Below are positions 13,324-21,172 of a stretch of DNA of 46,639 bases, piece by piece. Under the pieces are notes generated by a model. The model did no database searches. It saw only the letters and a program-made list of their open reading frames with translations, and had not been told where the DNA came from. Position numbers and translations under genes: made by a program. How positions within the stretch are numbered: position 1 is the first letter of the stretch; the number at the start of each line of letters is the position of its first letter. This stretch comes from Methanoregula sp. (GTDB taxonomy: Archaea > Halobacteriota > Methanomicrobia > Methanomicrobiales > Methanospirillaceae), in assembly GCF_003170075.1 (NCBI RefSeq), contig NZ_PMZU01000074.1:1-46639 (forward strand). The letters are read 5' to 3'.

Positions 13324-13878
13324 TCAGACGATAAGCGTGATCAGGTCGTGCTTGGTGATCACACCCTTAACGACCCGCCCCTCGACAACAAGCACCGCGT
13401 GATTCTGCTGGAGGATGTTAACCACCGTCTCGACATCCATATCCGGGGGAACCGTGGGAAAGCCGGGCTCCATGAAGTCTTTTACCATGAACAGGTGCGT
13501 GTGATGGAGGCGCTGTTGCTCGATCGCTTTTACGATCACTGATTCGGAGATACATCCGACCGGCGCACCCCGCTCGATCACCGGCAGCTGGGAGATGTTG
13601 TTCTTTTCGAAGATGTCCACGGCCTGCGAGATACTCGCCTGTGGCAGGACGGAGAGCACCGGCGTGTGCATGATTTGGCCGGCAGTTATTTTCTTTGGTT
13701 CGGCATTATTGAGCACCACGATGATCTTGTTTAAGGTGCTGACCCTGGGGTCGACGCTGCCTGCCTCGATCCGCGCCACCATGGACTGGCTGATCCCTGC
13801 CCTCTTTGCGATCTCGGTCTGCCTGAGCCCCAGCGATTCGCGGCGGGAACGGAGCTCTTCAGGACTCGGTATGTGCAT
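13324..13878 (-). CDS. HTH (XRE-type) regulator with a CBS pair
   Basis: A 184-residue protein. Residues about 8-60 form a Cro/XRE helix-turn-helix (LGLRQTEIAKRAGISQSMVA). Residues about 65-120 and 130-184 form two CBS motifs that usually bind adenine nucleotides or similar ligands. This HTH-CBS architecture is common in methanogens and suggests a regulator that senses energy or ligand state. The ATG at 13878 is preferred to a TTG two codons earlier. A perfect 14-bp palindrome (13896-13909) lies just upstream and suggests autoregulation. The target genes and ligand are unknown. Confidence 0.85.
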   Translation of the reverse strand: MHIPSPEELRSRRESLGLRQTEIAKRAGISQSMVARIEAGSVDPRVSTLNKIIVVLNNAEPKKITAGQIMHTPVLSVLPQASISQAVDIFEKNNISQLPVIERGAPVGCISESVIVKAIEQQRLHHTHLFMVKDFMEPGFPTVPPDMDVETVVNILQQNHAVLVVEGRVVKGVITKHDLITLIV

Positions 13879-13895
13879 ATGCAATTACTGATAGT

Positions 13896-14680: not shown

Positions 14681-14884
14681 TCCAAGGTATGGTCACGTGC
14701 AAAATTCTTTTAAAGCCCTGCACCTATAGAGGAAGATAGAATAATCCACACTCCGTGCTGGATTAGTGTTGAACATGACCGTCAGTGTCAGCAACGACGA
14801 TGATGATGAAGTGGCTAAACGGTTGGCGTTTTCCCGCTCTTTTGTAATGACACGCTGCAATCGCTATGCGGGTGCAGCGCGTGA

Positions 14885-14893
14885 GTATATAGA
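14885..14893 (+). promoter_or_regulatory. Candidate TATA box of the amidoligase operon
   Basis: AGTATATAG stands out in GC-rich surroundings. Transcription would begin near 14915, which gives about 100 nt of leader to an ATG at 15014 and about 315 nt to the preferred ATG at 15230. No better box is seen before the operon. Confidence 0.4.
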
Positions 14894-15229
14894 TCATGCT
14901 TTTGCCCTGTTCATTCATTCTGCCCGGCATTACTGTTCCACGGGCAGGTCTGTACCGGGAATCCCCGGCCCCCGGGGTACCTCTGCGAGGGTGGAAAGCG
15001 AGCTGATCTTCGGATGAACGATCGGGAGGGTTACACCCCGCAGCCCGACGACGAGCTGCAGACAGAGAGTCCCATCGCGTCCGGTCCCGCAAACCCCTTC
15101 GCCCGGCCGGGTATGAGCCGGCGGGCGTCAGCACGGGCGGCGATGCTTGCCCAGACGCCCGCAAGAGCCGGGACAGGGGGTGGCAACCACACAACCCATG
15201 CCCATCTCGTCCCTAAAAAGGAACCGGTG

Positions 15230-15853
15230 ATGACCCGGGATTCGCTTGCCATTGTCACGCGGGACCATGCAACCCATGTCATCGCGGAGGACTACTCGTA
15301 TAAGACCGAGGCCTACTACACCATCCTTGAGCGTGAACTGGCCGGGGAGGATATCCACCCGTCCAGCCGCAACGTCCTCGACGCATTTGTGGTGCCCATC
15401 TGCCTTGAGCGGGCAAAACTCGCCGGCATCCCGGTCATGGAATGGGGCATCTCGCAGGCCTACGTCCCGCTCCCGGCGATCCTCTATGGGCTCAACTACT
15501 TTGCGACTGCGTCCGACTTCTTTGTCGTGCAGGACAACGAGCAGGCAAAGGACGTCGTCAAGCATATCACCAACAAGGGCAAGTACCCGTTCTGCTACCA
15601 GAAACTCGACGATGACGCAACCATTCATACCTGCACGGCGGTCTTTGGCCGGATCACGGGGAGCTGCTCGGCAATCGGGGGATACGCGGAGAAGATCTAC
15701 GAACTCTTTTCCATACCGCTCGTGAGCATGGTCTTTGTAAAAACCGGAACCGGGGTCGTGCTCTCGTCGCTTGCTCCCACGCGCTACACCCACCTTACCG
15801 AAAAGGAGCGGGCGCTCCTTGCCGCATACCGGGACGAGCAGGAGTTTTTATGA
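15230..15853 (+). CDS. RLAN-like protein (RimK-associated N-terminal domain), stand-alone
   Basis: A 207-residue protein. The part from IAEDYSYKTEAYYTILE through HPSSRNVLDAF resembles the RLAN domain (PF14401), normally fused to the N-terminus of RimK-like ATP-grasp ligases. Here it is a separate gene overlapping the ATP-grasp gene by ATGA. It has four Cys but no obvious catalytic motif. The ATG at 15230 is chosen because AAGGAA precedes it by 7 nt and the conserved-looking region begins there. An in-frame ATG at 15014 would add 72 Pro/Ala/Arg-rich residues and lacks a good ribosome site, though the TATA box suits it. The family call is from memory of the motif pattern. Confidence 0.6.
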   Translation: MTRDSLAIVTRDHATHVIAEDYSYKTEAYYTILERELAGEDIHPSSRNVLDAFVVPICLERAKLAGIPVMEWGISQAYVPLPAILYGLNYFATASDFFVVQDNEQAKDVVKHITNKGKYPFCYQKLDDDATIHTCTAVFGRITGSCSAIGGYAEKIYELFSIPLVSMVFVKTGTGVVLSSLAPTRYTHLTEKERALLAAYRDEQEFL

Positions 15854-16722
15854 GCAGGCTTGGCATTTTTGTCGACAGGAAAACCCTCTCCAACGCCGAG
15901 CAGCTCAGTGCCCTGATCCACTGCCGGGACGTGGCCGAAGGCCGGGGACACAATGTGGAGTTTCTCTTCCCGGTCGACATCAACAAGATCCCGAAAATGG
16001 ACGCGCTCTTCATCCGTGCCCGGACCGACCCGATGAATATCACGTACGTCGCCGCCCGTATGGCCGACTTTCACGGTATCCCGGTCATCGACGACTCGGA
16101 TTCCATCCAGATCTGTGGCGACAAGATCAACATGTATTCCCACCTCCAGAAAAAGAACGTCGCGCTCCCAAAAACCGTCTTTCTCTCAAAAAACGACCTG
16201 TCGGTCGAACGGGTCTCGCAGCTCTTCGACAGAATGGGGACCCCGCTGATTCTCAAGGAGCCTTCGACCTCGTTCTCGCTCCGGGTCGAAAAGGTCATGG
16301 ACATCGCCGGTTTCTTCCGGGTCGCCCGGCGGTTCATCAAGATGTCGGACTGGATCGTCGTCCAGCAGTTCGTGGAGAGCACGTACGACTGGCGGGTTGG
16401 AGTCCTTGGCAGAAAACTCCTGTACGTCTGCAAGTACACCATCCCCTCGGTAACGTTTAAGATCCAGGCATCCGTGAACGGCCATATCGTGTACTGCGGC
16501 GTGGAGAGCATGCCCGAAAGTGCAGTACCGCCCCATGTCATCCAGCTCGGGATCGATGCGGCAGACGCGATCGGAAACGGGCTGTACGGCGTAGATATCA
16601 AGAACAACAACGGCGATGCCTGCGTGATCGAGGTAAATGACAACCCGTCGCTTGAGAGCGGCGAGGATGCCTACTACCCCCATGTGTACGAACGGATCGT
16701 CGACCACCTTTTTGCAGCGTGA
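15850..16722 (+). CDS. RimK-like ATP-grasp ligase
   Basis: A 290-residue ligase. A preATP-grasp region (1 to about 90) is followed by the ATP-grasp fold: Lys92, Lys136 in LILKEPSTSFS for ATP, WIVVQQFVE with a following YDWRVGVLG, and the metal and phosphate motif YGVDIKNNN to EVNDNPSL (Asp249, Glu261, Asn263). Relatives such as RimK, MptN and CofF add glutamate or other amino acids to a carboxylate. Neither the cofactor F420 nor the methanopterin tail role can be ruled out, but the neighbours (RLAN, GCS2) point to another product. It is translationally coupled to the RLAN gene. Confidence 0.85.
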   Translation: MSRLGIFVDRKTLSNAEQLSALIHCRDVAEGRGHNVEFLFPVDINKIPKMDALFIRARTDPMNITYVAARMADFHGIPVIDDSDSIQICGDKINMYSHLQKKNVALPKTVFLSKNDLSVERVSQLFDRMGTPLILKEPSTSFSLRVEKVMDIAGFFRVARRFIKMSDWIVVQQFVESTYDWRVGVLGRKLLYVCKYTIPSVTFKIQASVNGHIVYCGVESMPESAVPPHVIQLGIDAADAIGNGLYGVDIKNNNGDACVIEVNDNPSLESGEDAYYPHVYERIVDHLFAA

Positions 16723-16728
16723 TCATAT

Positions 16729-17223
16729 TTGACGGAAAACTGGCCGCTTCGTGCCGAAGCTATCTGTATGAAATGCGGGGGGCGCTGCTGCGATGACGCA
16801 CATCCCCCCATATCCATGAACTGCCAACAGAGACTGATCACAGCGGGGGTATCCCTGACTGCATTTGAGACCCGTGGCTACCGGCGGCTCCGGACAAATC
16901 CTGATCATACCTGCATTCTCATGAATGACAGCATGTGCATGATTCACGCGATAAAACCCGAAACCTGCCGGGCAGGGCCGTTTACCTTCGATGTGGACGG
17001 TGACACAATCCGGATCTTCCTAAAGCACGCGTCTATCTGCCCTATCGTAACGCTCTTAAAAGAGGTGCCCGAAGCGTACGGGCAGCAGTACGACCTGGCC
17101 ATAGAGAATATCACAAATCTCGTCGCACACCTCACGGATGCGGAGATTGACGCAATCAACCGGATCGACGAACCCGACACGGATCTGGTTGTGGCAATTC
17201 CCCGGGGACACCGGTTCGTATGA
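16729..17223 (+). CDS. YkgJ-type Cys-cluster protein
   Basis: A 164-residue protein of the zinc/iron-chelating YkgJ family. The N-terminal signature C13-x2-C16-x3-C20-C21 (ICMKCGGRCCD) and later cysteines in CILMNDSMC and PETCRAGPF are typical. The family is uncharacterised but often sits next to modification or methylation enzymes. The start is a TTG at 16729 behind GTGATCA, which matches the ribosome's anti-Shine-Dalgarno region; the next ATG would cut into the Cys motif. The stop overlaps the GCS2 start by ATGA, so it belongs to the same operon. Confidence 0.8.
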   Translation: MTENWPLRAEAICMKCGGRCCDDAHPPISMNCQQRLITAGVSLTAFETRGYRRLRTNPDHTCILMNDSMCMIHAIKPETCRAGPFTFDVDGDTIRIFLKHASICPIVTLLKEVPEAYGQQYDLAIENITNLVAHLTDAEIDAINRIDEPDTDLVVAIPRGHRFV

Positions 17224-18332
17224 CGATTGGAACAGAACACGAATACTCGGTGAACGATGCACATTTTACTGCGCTTCCCGTCTCCGACCAGATCATCAAA
17301 TCGATCTGCGGGAGTTTTTCAGGCGAGATCCTCTTTGGCGAGGTCAAACTGGGAAAGGAACTCCAGAAAACCGTGCTCGAATTTGTCCCGCGTGTCCCTG
17401 CATCCGGCCCTGCGGCGCTGGAATCGATGCTCATGCAGGGGATCCGGAAATTCTACCATATCTTTCCCACTCAGTACCACCTGCTCGGCCTTGGGATGCA
17501 CCCCACCCTGACGCTCGACCGGACTGCTGTCTGGGATCATGACGAGGGGGAGTACTACGAGGCCTACGACCGTCTCTTTAACATCCGGCAGCACGGGTGG
17601 CTCAACATCCAGGCGCTCCAGATCAACCTCTCGTATGCGGGAGAAAAAGACCTGCTCATGCAGTACAACCGGATCCGCACCCTCCTCCCGTATCTTATCG
17701 CGCTTACGGCATCTTCCCCTATGGTGGAGGGCCGTCTGACCGGGACAATGGATAACCGGCTTATCTATTACCGGGAGAACCAGAAGGAGATCCCGGCAAT
17801 CTGCAACGGCATCATCCCGGCGCGGCTCCGGTCGGTGGCGGAGTACCAGATGGCGCAGGAACGGATTTTTTCAGAGCTCCGGGCCCGTCATGCTGGGATC
17901 CTCTGCGAGGAATGGCTCAATTCGAGCGGGCTTATCATCCGGTTCTCCCGGGGCTGCCTTGAGATCAAGGCACCGGACGAACAGGAGTGCATCCGCTCCG
18001 ATATGGCAGTCGCTGCGCTGGTGACCTCACTCCTGCGCTGCCCGACGCTCCCGGTCGAGAGCGACCAGGATGCGCTGCTCGCACTCACGGAAACAGCGAT
18101 TCAGGACGGCACGGCCGGGCTCCGTCCGGAACTTGAAGCGCTGTACCGCTGTGCATGGCAGAGGGCAAGCGCTGAAGAGCGGCAATATCTCCCCGTTATT
18201 GAGAGCAGGATCACGAAAGGCAGCCTTGCCGAACAGATGGCGGAGCGGTACCGTAAGGAAAAAACAATCGAGCCGATCCTTGCCGACATGGCGCACTGCC
18301 TCCGGGTGAATAAGCCATACGGCATAGGGTGA
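17220..18332 (+). CDS. GCS2-type carboxylate-amine ligase
   Basis: A 370-residue member of the glutamate-cysteine ligase family 2 (YbdK/GCS2), part of the glutamine synthetase-like fold. Characteristic parts are IGTEHEYSV (3-11), GLGMHP (90-95), LQINLSY (133-139) and SSPMVEGRLTG (165-175), with YYREN. Such enzymes join an amino acid to a carboxyl group using ATP. No glutathione pathway is expected in this organism, so gamma-glutamylcysteine is possible but not the obvious product. It is the fourth gene of the RLAN/RimK/YkgJ unit and is followed by a terminator. Confidence 0.82.
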   Translation: MTIGTEHEYSVNDAHFTALPVSDQIIKSICGSFSGEILFGEVKLGKELQKTVLEFVPRVPASGPAALESMLMQGIRKFYHIFPTQYHLLGLGMHPTLTLDRTAVWDHDEGEYYEAYDRLFNIRQHGWLNIQALQINLSYAGEKDLLMQYNRIRTLLPYLIALTASSPMVEGRLTGTMDNRLIYYRENQKEIPAICNGIIPARLRSVAEYQMAQERIFSELRARHAGILCEEWLNSSGLIIRFSRGCLEIKAPDEQECIRSDMAVAALVTSLLRCPTLPVESDQDALLALTETAIQDGTAGLRPELEALYRCAWQRASAEERQYLPVIESRITKGSLAEQMAERYRKEKTIEPILADMAHCLRVNKPYGIG

Positions 18333-18338
18333 GATTTT

Positions 18339-18372
18339 ATCCGGGAACAGGGCCGGATTTTTTCTTTTTTGG
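18339..18372 (+). terminator. Hairpin and T-tract ending the amidoligase operon
   Basis: ATCCGG (18339-18344) pairs with CCGGAT (18353-18358) around an 8-nt loop and is followed at once by TTTTTCTTTTTT. This is one of the clearest terminator-like structures in the window, and it starts 7 nt after the GCS2 stop. Confidence 0.6.
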
Positions 18373-18934: not shown

Positions 18935-19081
18935 CGTTCCTTGTGAGGGAAGAAGCAACAATATCTTCATACATTCATAATGATTTTCATTGAAAATTCC
19001 ACAAAACCGATACTGACTGCTCCCTGCACAATCCTCATTAACCCCTCACCGGCAATATCACTACAGGAGCAACCTATCCCC

Positions 19082-21172
19082 ATGTCACGCACCCTCCTTT
19101 CCGAAGCGGACGGCTATGAACTGCTGAAACAATACGGTATCCCGGTGCCCCGTTCAACGGTCGTTCATACCGCTGAAGAGGCAGGACGGGCAGCAGACGG
19201 GATTGGGTTCCCGGTGGTGGCAAAGATCGTCTCACCGCAGGTCGTCCACAAGAGCGATGCGGGCGGCGTTATCACCGGCATCACGTCTGCCGCTGCTGCA
19301 GAAAAGGCGTTTACCGCCATCACACAGAATGTCCGGGTGGCGTATCCCGAGGCAGAGATCGAAGGAATTATCATTGAAGCGGAGCAGAAACCCGGCCTCG
19401 AACTGATCATCGGGGGAAAGACCGACCCGGCGTTCGGGAAGGTGATAACGATCGGCATGGGCGGCACGCTCGTCGAACTGCTCCGTGACGTTGCGATCCG
19501 GATCCTGCCGGTCAGCGATGACGAGATCCGCACCATGATCCACAGTCTTAAGGGATACCCACTGATCGCCGGCTTCCGGCACGCCGCTCCCCGCGATGAG
19601 GCAGCGCTCGTCACCATCGCCGGGGCGCTGGTTCACATGTTCCTTGAGCATCCGGAGATCCGGGAGTTCGATATCAACCCCGTTATCCTGTACGGCGAGG
19701 GCGGTTGTGCGGTTGACGCACGGATCTACACCGACGATGCGGTTGAACCGGCGCATGATGCAGAGGCAGCGGGTGCGGCGCTGCCGGACATCCTGCTTAA
19801 TATCCGGTCGGTCGCAATCGTCGGTGCATCGCAGGATCCAGGCAAAGTCGGGTACGCGATCTGCCGGAACATGCTCAGCTTTTCCGGCGCCCTTTACCCG
19901 GTCAACCCGAAAAGCCCGGAGATCCTCAGGAAGACTGCGTATCCATCCCTTGCCGCAATACCGGGGCCGGTGGATGCAGCGGTGATCGCGATCCCGGCAC
20001 CGGGCGTCCCGGCAATCGTCGAGGAAGCAGGAAAAAAGAAGATACCGCTTGTAATTATCGTCTCTTCAGGGTTCCGTGAGACCGGGCCGGCCGGAAAAGC
20101 GCTCGAAGATCAGGTGCTTGCCACCGCACAAAAGTACGGGTGCCGGATCATGGGCCCCAACTGCCTTGGGTTTATGCTCCCGGCACAGGGCATTAATACT
20201 ACCTTTGACTCGGTCTCCCCCCGGCCCGGCTCCATTGCGTTTATCTCCCAGAGCGGGGCTATCATCACCACAATCGTGGACTGGAGCCTGCCCGAAGAGA
20301 TCGGGTTTTCCGCTGTTATCTCGGTGGGCAACCAGCTGGATCTCACGTTCGAGGATTTTATCACGTGGGCCGCCGCCGATCCCGCGACAAATGCGATCAT
20401 CCTGTATGTTGAGGAGATCCGTAACGGCCGGCGCTTCATGGAGACCGTCAGCCGGATCACCCCGGAAAAACCCGTGATCGTGCTAAAATCCGGCTCGTCT
20501 GCAATCGGGCAGAAGGCCGCCTCATCGCACACGGGTTCCCTTGCCGGCAGTGAAATGGTCTACCAAGCCGCGTTCCGGCAGGCCGGGATGATCCCGGTCC
20601 GGTCGATCCGGGAGGCGTTCCAGGCAGCCGAACTCCTCGCGTCCGAAGGGTACCCCAAAGGTACCCGTGCAGTCGTGATCTCAAACGCCGGCGGATTTGC
20701 GGTGCTCTCCTCGGATTATGCCGAGCGGTTCGGGATCCAACTGGTGGAGTTCCCGGAGGCGCTCACCCGGGAACTGGACGCAGTACTCCCCACAAACTGG
20801 AGCCGGGCCAACCCGATCGACATGGTGGGGGATTCCCATCCCGACCGGTTTGCAAAGACCTTCGACGTGATGATCCGGCACCAGGACCTCTGGGACCTTG
20901 CCTTCGTCATTACAGTCCCGACCGCAATCTCCGATCCGCTCCGGGTTGCAAATGAGATCGTCCGGTTCTCGACGCATACTCACAAGATGATCGTAGGCTG
21001 CATGATTGGCGGTGATTCCATGAAGACGCCACAGCGGATCCTGCGGGAGGCACACATTCCGAACTTCCCGGACCTTGAGGACGCGTTCCGTGCGGTTGGG
21101 AACATCTGCCAATACACGTGCCATAAAAATGACGGATCATGCGGGTGCCAGCAGACACCCCGTATACCGTAA
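19082..21172 (+). CDS. ADP-forming acyl-CoA (acetyl-CoA) synthetase, fused beta-alpha
   Basis: A 696-residue enzyme that conserves the energy of an acyl-CoA thioester as ATP, or runs in reverse. The order is ATP-grasp (beta) domain first, residues 1 to about 225, then a CoA-binding Rossmann domain (SVAIVGASQDPGKVG) and two succinyl-CoA-ligase-like domains. The phosphohistidine motif SHTGSLAGS has His483. Cysteines cluster at the very C-terminus (CQYTCHKNDGSCGC), which is unusual. The ATG at 19082 has GGAG 12 nt before it; the frame extends 34 codons upstream with unlikely sequence. Acetate, aryl or branched-chain acids could be substrates. Confidence 0.9.
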   Translation: MSRTLLSEADGYELLKQYGIPVPRSTVVHTAEEAGRAADGIGFPVVAKIVSPQVVHKSDAGGVITGITSAAAAEKAFTAITQNVRVAYPEAEIEGIIIEAEQKPGLELIIGGKTDPAFGKVITIGMGGTLVELLRDVAIRILPVSDDEIRTMIHSLKGYPLIAGFRHAAPRDEAALVTIAGALVHMFLEHPEIREFDINPVILYGEGGCAVDARIYTDDAVEPAHDAEAAGAALPDILLNIRSVAIVGASQDPGKVGYAICRNMLSFSGALYPVNPKSPEILRKTAYPSLAAIPGPVDAAVIAIPAPGVPAIVEEAGKKKIPLVIIVSSGFRETGPAGKALEDQVLATAQKYGCRIMGPNCLGFMLPAQGINTTFDSVSPRPGSIAFISQSGAIITTIVDWSLPEEIGFSAVISVGNQLDLTFEDFITWAAADPATNAIILYVEEIRNGRRFMETVSRITPEKPVIVLKSGSSAIGQKAASSHTGSLAGSEMVYQAAFRQAGMIPVRSIREAFQAAELLASEGYPKGTRAVVISNAGGFAVLSSDYAERFGIQLVEFPEALTRELDAVLPTNWSRANPIDMVGDSHPDRFAKTFDVMIRHQDLWDLAFVITVPTAISDPLRVANEIVRFSTHTHKMIVGCMIGGDSMKTPQRILREAHIPNFPDLEDAFRAVGNICQYTCHKNDGSCGCQQTPRIP

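Follow-up and report, generated by a model that had tools for sequence, protein, structure and literature searches.

An archaeal amidoligase operon pairs a RimK-type ligase with RLAN, an apparently degenerate ATP-grasp relative

In Methanoregula sp., of the order Methanomicrobiales, an RLAN protein is encoded as a separate gene directly before a RimK-type ligase, in a set that also encodes a YkgJ-type protein and a GCS2 ligase. RLAN has so far been treated as an uncharacterised domain that lies beside RimK ligases in many bacteria. We analysed 46,639 nucleotides of contig NZ_PMZU01000074.1 (the window, meaning the whole stretch of DNA under study) together with related genomes. A search of one literature collection on RLAN/PF14401 and on the gene set returned no paper; Iyer et al. 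reportedly discussed a predicted class of RLAN-RimK/GCS2 amidoligase neighbourhoods in 2009. The operon looks like a union of a live peptide-bond-forming enzyme, its apparently dead sister RLAN, and a second ligase. Its genes and its end are laid out as follows:

15014 (or 15230)..15853, + strand: RLAN gene, 279 aa with its tail; conserved domain from about 15230
15850..16722, + strand: RimK-type ATP-grasp ligase gene, 290 aa; PF08443/PF02655 above cut-off
16729..17223, + strand: YkgJ/CxxCxxCC gene, TTG start; PF03692 match
17220..18332, + strand: GCS2 carboxylate-amine ligase gene, 370 aa; PF04107 match
18339..18366, + strand: terminator-like hairpin (18339–18358) and T-run to about 18366, after the last stop

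The initial annotation had described four ORFs overlapping by ATGA or lying within 6 nt of each other, and had named their products; both the layout and the domain names were borne out. RLAN and RimK meet at an ATGA, RimK and YkgJ are 6 nt apart, and YkgJ and GCS2 again share an ATGA, junctions that recur in relatives; the 4-nt RLAN-RimK overlap is found in most Methanoregula- and Methanolinea-type genomes. All four proteins score above their Pfam cut-offs, including RLAN, which does find its own profile (PF14401, 31.7 bits; cut-off 25), although over its second half only (model positions 79–148); intermediate archaeal RLAN members reach 49 and 82 bits. The RLAN ORF and domain had been correctly recognised, but the start is probably at 15014 rather than 15230, because the ATG there shares nucleotides with the stop codon of a small ORF upstream, as it does in nearly all such loci, and because the N-terminal extension (~41–79 codons) has a third-position excess (125/99/173). 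The hairpin and T-tract reported at the operon end are present and statistically weak: a scan found 4 such sites in the region against 4.0 in shuffles (fold z -1.5). Because this is no excess over shuffles, the terminator is called from its position. The neighbouring acetate-CoA ligase (18980–21172) and HTH-CBS genes were considered as operon parts and rejected; they are conserved only in close relatives and are thus attributed to synteny.

No solved relatives of RLAN were found by sequence search. The AF2 model of RLAN, built from 36 sequences, had a pLDDT of 91.1 and a pTM of 0.87, and a Foldseek comparison of this model with the PDB listed 50 matches, all of them ATP-grasp proteins at a probability of 1.00. 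The best match among those listed was 5k2m (LysX/ArgX, E 1.5e-9), followed by ArgX 3vpb and RimK 7qys, and the TM-scores by query were 0.49–0.64. With larger alignments, hhalign scored RLAN against RimK at 34.8 (P 3e-4, 100 columns), compared with 15.1 for GCS2, 13.2 for YkgJ, 13.0 for a reversed profile and 23.9 for the best of 60 column shuffles. Since the hhalign probability was only 39%, sequence alone would not settle the kinship. A smaller RLAN-RimK profile comparison was colinear across 157 columns. In the model of a fused bacterial RLAN-RimK protein (pLDDT 86.9), the helices and strands at 54–64, 68–70, 73–80 and 82–91 recur at 254–264, 268–270, 273–280 and 282–291, giving the RLAN and RimK halves (54–91 and 254–291) a common helix-strand-helix-helix spacing. 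A middle stretch is kept in archaeal RLAN and absent from bacterial RLAN.

The predicted RLAN model thus has the ATP-grasp fold, while the ATP-binding lysine is missing and the metal ligands are probably missing too. The ATP-binding lysine K136 of RimK (LILKEP) aligns with Y86 of RLAN, and by the order of elements the metal-binding EVNDNP segment of RimK would correspond to LSSLAP; it is for these replacements that we term RLAN degenerate. Judged from the predicted fold and the alignments, RLAN looks like a dead, shortened ATP-grasp sister of RimK, and the pair may have arisen by tandem duplication. The likeness of RLAN to ATP-grasp proteins had gone unmentioned in the initial annotation.

RimK itself is predicted from its motifs to be an active ligase, as is GCS2. 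It matches ATP-grasp_3 at 30.7 bits (cut-off 23.2) and RimK at 29.5 bits (cut-off 21), and K136, R182, D249, E261 and N263 are invariant in 24 relatives. It shares the RimK-type ATP-grasp fold and catalytic residues with LysX/ArgX, the S6 ligase RimK, MptN and CofF, but scores far under every curated NCBIfam cut-off: rimK_fam 71.5 of 143.4 bits, LysX 57.1 of 275.6, MptN 57.6 of 350 and CofF 21.4 of 300. We know of no RLAN partner for any of these enzymes. Because the operon proteins match named NCBIfam enzymes only below threshold, none of them is an equivalog of RimK, LysX, MptN, CofF or glutamate-cysteine ligase. A role as the ligase that adds the tail of a methanogen cofactor (F420 or methanopterin type) might be suspected from the kinship with MptN and CofF and from the fact that no other strong RimK-family match was found in the genome; the low MptN and CofF scores led us to reject that identity, and since 116 of the 150 genomes of the order lack the operon, whose core many bacteria have, we regard such a role as extremely improbable.

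The GCS2 protein, the only one in the genome, matches PF04107 at 123.1 bits (cut-off 21). The family signature, GxExE and Ex[RK]x2D (PMC2588565), is intact as GTEHE at 4–8 (G4-x-E6-x-E8) and E248-x-K250-x2-D253, together with R180 and R241. These motifs are shared with glutamate-cysteine ligase 2 and YbdK, and among relatives of solved structure, plant glutamate-cysteine ligases come nearest (E 1e-7). A glutathione-like thiol pathway, in which GCS2 would act as glutamate-cysteine ligase, RimK would add the third residue and YkgJ would serve as a metal or redox protein, draws on this kinship and on the order of glutathione synthesis, glutamate-cysteine ligase followed by an ATP-grasp enzyme. 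However, GCS2 reaches no curated glutamate-cysteine ligase cut-off, its best score being 42.6 bits for the YbdK subfamily against a cut-off of 176, and no cysteine-specific evidence was found. We therefore judge this pathway distinctly unlikely, and the Cys-containing product suggested at first for the operon has no direct support.

YkgJ matches PF03692 at 36.7 bits (cut-off 23) and has eight Cys residues (13, 16, 20, 21, 62, 70, 80 and 104) that are invariant in the alignment; a sequence search for solved relatives found none. FliB has a Cys cluster that, according to its authors, resembles PF03692 and that carries [4Fe-4S] (PMC8598068), and by this analogy YkgJ is likely to be an Fe-S protein.

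The expectation that the four genes travel together was examined by searching 150 genomes of the order with a profile for each protein. The same 34 genomes carry both RLAN and RimK; GCS2 is present in 32 and YkgJ in 27. In nearly all carriers the genes are adjacent in constant order, so that the linkage extends to homologs in other genomes, nearly always within one operon. The exceptions are informative. YkgJ is absent from one genome (G011) and from two loci (L140 and L153) that keep GCS2 and RimK; another genome, G023, retains no more than a remnant (a fragment of 33 bits in L146); and the g23 genomes have no YkgJ and a GCS2 that has lost the GxExE motif. In G002, RLAN-RimK is followed directly by a CitMHS-type permease, with YkgJ absent and no GCS2 anywhere. 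Because of these exceptions, RLAN-RimK is the core and GCS2 with YkgJ a dispensable module. The dispensability of YkgJ and GCS2, like the ORF upstream of RLAN described below, had been missed in the initial annotation.

Beyond the order, an RLAN profile search of the phylum, Halobacteriota, was positive in 39 of 295 genomes. The full operon is present in a family whose loci match named Methanothrix loci (f22); a second family (f9) has RLAN-RimK-GCS2-YkgJ, or split halves close by, and a third (f14) has RLAN-RimK alone, GCS2 being absent in the four genomes checked. The latter two families look like Archaeoglobi and Methanocella. With GCS2 and YkgJ missing in G002 and GCS2 missing in f14, RLAN-RimK must do something alone. 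A scan of named genomes found this RimK in Methanoregula, Methanolinea, Methanothrix, Methanomassiliicoccales, Bathyarchaeota, Methanoperedens and many bacteria, and in Bathyarchaeota a divergent GCS2-YkgJ pair adjoins RLAN-RimK. The gene set thus recurs in Methanothrix, in Archaeoglobi-like genomes and in Bathyarchaeota.

On the RimK tree, a single change parts the split from the fused form. Most bacteria encode RLAN-RimK as one fused protein, and the split clade consists of archaea and a few bacteria; the separate RLAN gene was thus correctly contrasted with the usual fusion, but it is the rule in a whole clade and not an oddity of one genome. YkgJ is confined to the split clade, with GCS2 in all but one row. 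In Legionella, Bacteroidota, Planctomycetota and others, RLAN and a RimK-type ligase likewise adjoin GCS2, which is of the same subfamily (~170–230 bits with the archaeal profile). These bacterial systems differ in their fused RLAN-RimK and in often having a separate C39-like peptidase and an N-formylglutamate amidohydrolase in place of YkgJ; no members of these two clusters were found in the archaeal neighbourhoods.

A survey of partners in 90 rows (loci) of the RimK tree found GCS2 beside RLAN-RimK in 51, a GNAT acetyltransferase in 21 and both together in none. A DUF3335 C39-like peptidase often forms one fused protein with GNAT, and at least five switches between GCS2 and GNAT are seen on the tree. 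Systems with GNAT, in bacteria and archaea, share the RLAN-RimK core, but the acetyltransferase replaces GCS2 and YkgJ is absent. Because a sign test on independent pairs was not significant once relatedness was allowed for, the exclusivity is a strong pattern and not a proven rule. That the two never occur together suggests that GCS2 and GNAT perform the same job, as interchangeable steps capping an amino group (N-capping).

The same neighbourhoods bear on a role in tagging, in which RLAN-RimK would add amino acids to a protein or peptide, GCS2 would add or start the tag and peptidases would remove it. RimK adds amino acids to ribosomal protein S6, and the closest structures of both RimK and RLAN are RimK, LysX and ArgX, enzymes whose substrates are protein carboxylates; the C39-like and N-formylglutamate amidohydrolase partners in bacteria would also suit removal of a tag. 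However, the archaeal operons have no peptidase and no conserved target protein, and GNAT as the alternative partner suits small-molecule capping better. C39-like peptidases beside the bacterial members fit peptide and protein substrates equally. On balance, we consider tagging unlikely.

From the computed domains, motifs, linkage, fold match, hairpin and ORF coupling, we infer a scheme of complex formation, step order, capping, product class and leader function, in which GCS2 would make a small gamma-glutamyl-capped peptide that RLAN-RimK then extends. We favour this scheme tentatively, at somewhat less than an even chance. RLAN would be a pseudoenzyme subunit that pairs with RimK where a second RimK subunit would otherwise sit, and it may help to bind or position the substrate; the pair would add an amino acid to a free carboxylate after the GCS2 step, so that the order of steps would be that of glutathione with different machinery for the second. 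In the GNAT systems, the same position would be capped with acetyl instead. YkgJ, probably an Fe-S protein, would serve as a metal accessory that accompanies GCS2 in archaea, and expression of the operon would run through an acidic leader ORF that is translationally coupled to RLAN and probably regulatory. Against this scheme stand the g23 GCS2 proteins without GxExE, the losses of YkgJ and GCS2 beside a retained RLAN-RimK, the lack of significance of the GCS2/GNAT exclusivity, and the C39-like peptidases of the bacterial members, which would suit protein substrates just as well. The broader proposal of the initial annotation, synthesis or attachment of a short peptide-like tag or of a metabolite, remains plausible.

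Read from the upstream sequence, the operon appears to begin further upstream than first annotated, with three additional elements:

14700..14715, + strand: putative TATA/BRE-like promoter sequence (caaaattcttttaaag), read directly
14742..14765, + strand: 5' UTR hairpin TAATCCA-n10-TGGATTA, directly before the small ORF
14775..15017, + strand: acidic small ORF (MTVSVSNDDDDEVAKRLAFS..., 80 aa), candidate leader peptide, its stop coupled to the RLAN ATG

A/T-rich boxes like caaaattcttttaaag lie at the same place in relatives. The stem recurs in this position in 24 loci, with a mean score of 9.0 where shuffles reach no more than 6.3; its inner pairs 7–9 are standard in 13, 12 and 11 of 14 different sequences of Methanoregula type, in which several kinds of pair occur, and the arms covary (ATCCGGC/GCCGGAT, ATCCACA/TGTGGAT, AGCCGCA/TGCGGCT) around a loop of variable length. 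A protein-binding palindrome is disfavoured because the spacing of the arms varies (~10–15 nt between half-sites) while the inner positions covary. An Rfam search gave no match, and the motif GGATTAGTGTTNNNNATG before the ATG of the small ORF occurs once in the genome.

About 24 loci have the small ORF, with a common acidic N-terminal core of DDDD type (MTVSVSNDDDDE in the window at 14775, MPEPESENDDDPHDRV in the Methanolinea type) and a variable tail. In nearly all of them the stop overlaps the upstream ATG of RLAN (ATGA or similar; ATG at -4 or -1), and in one locus (L081) the ORF and RLAN form a single reading frame, either a true fusion or the result of a sequencing slip. No third-position excess was found in the small ORF (core 30/22/32, tail 113/125/131), whereas that of RLAN is strong; the tail is therefore an open frame free to change, and conservation of the ORF is confined to its acidic start. 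A conserved protein was rejected for want of any codon-position signal. Other conserved small-ORF clusters were mostly shadow frames of known genes, and only the leader ORF survived.

Could the small ORF instead be a ribosomally made substrate or carrier of the ligases, RiPP-like or LysW-like? It is the first gene of the operon, its acidic N-terminus is conserved before a variable tail, and it is fused to RLAN in L081. LysW-type carriers, small proteins with an EDWGE C-terminus, come to mind because LysX/ArgX are the nearest structures. However, the tail of the small ORF varies in length and has no conserved residues, and so does not offer the conserved modifiable core of a graspetide/RiPP precursor; the codon-position signal is lacking, and the ORF was not found in Methanothrix, Bathyarchaeota or other members; we regard a substrate role as very unlikely. 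Since only the acidic start is kept, a regulatory leader peptide, translationally coupled to RLAN, is the probable function. Its acidic run and ATGA coupling make the small ORF a candidate for a leader of the IRD type (intrinsic ribosome destabilization), for which an acidic run in the first 30 residues of a translated upstream ORF is the hallmark. In the short upstream ORFs MgtL and mgtQ, acidic residues among the first 30 codons make ribosomes pause or drop off (PMC11282234, PMC8092293). The likeness lies in these residues; the ORF described here differs in being archaeal, longer and ATGA-coupled to the next gene, and is known from its sequence. More speculatively, and at well under an even chance, the dead/live ATP-grasp pair may be joined to an acidic leader (DDDD/EPESENDDDP-type, with covarying hairpin and ATGA) by which translation conditions are sensed, either through ribosome destabilization or through Asp/Glu supply. 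To our knowledge, such an acidic leader would be without precedent in archaea.

If RLAN is a degenerate ATP-grasp protein, this would explain its pairing with RimK. The idea is directly testable, and the separate archaeal RLAN and RimK genes are convenient for reconstitution. A coupled acidic leader, if true, would offer a rare handle on archaeal translational control. The alternation of GCS2 and GNAT provides a hypothesis on the chemistry behind a family of peptide products across archaea and bacteria.

Two genes flank the operon in the window:

13324-13884, minus strand, upstream of the operon: HTH plus CBS-domain regulator
18980-21172, downstream of the operon: ADP-forming acyl-CoA synthetase

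The synthetase gene is kept in close relatives only. The HTH-CBS gene is syntenic among Methanoregula-type genomes and could act as a regulator.

Among the other loci with RLAN-RimK relatives, the GCS2 homologs of L082, L083 and L086 lack both the GxExE and the central motif, and YkgJ has also been lost from these genomes. All four operon genes are present in L090 (genome G113), each with frameshifts, which are most likely assembly errors.

In Bathyarchaeota RLAN-RimK loci (L160-L164, L167, L168), a deoxyhypusine synthase gene lies directly 3' of RimK, often accompanied by a second, convergent copy. A gene of 660-760 aa with a thioredoxin-like/YyaL appearance is found immediately upstream of the operon, in the same direction, in L118 (6747-8750), with counterparts in other Methanothrix-type loci (L119-L121, L147-L150). 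At the Methanoperedens-type loci L171, L172 and L174, RLAN-RimK is accompanied by GNAT and DUF2111 genes on the opposite strand.

At four loci, RLAN-RimK or GCS2 is adjoined by a CitMHS/ArsB-type anion permease gene:

L083, 4304-5560: CitMHS/ArsB-type anion permease
L087, 7336-8586: CitMHS/ArsB-type anion permease
L128, 10636-11853: CitMHS/ArsB-type anion permease
L131, 11141-12339: CitMHS/ArsB-type anion permease

This adjacency was seen in two distant families, f3, which belongs to the window's own order, and f9, which lies outside it. The CitMHS/ArsB-type permease is a possible transporter for the product of the operon.
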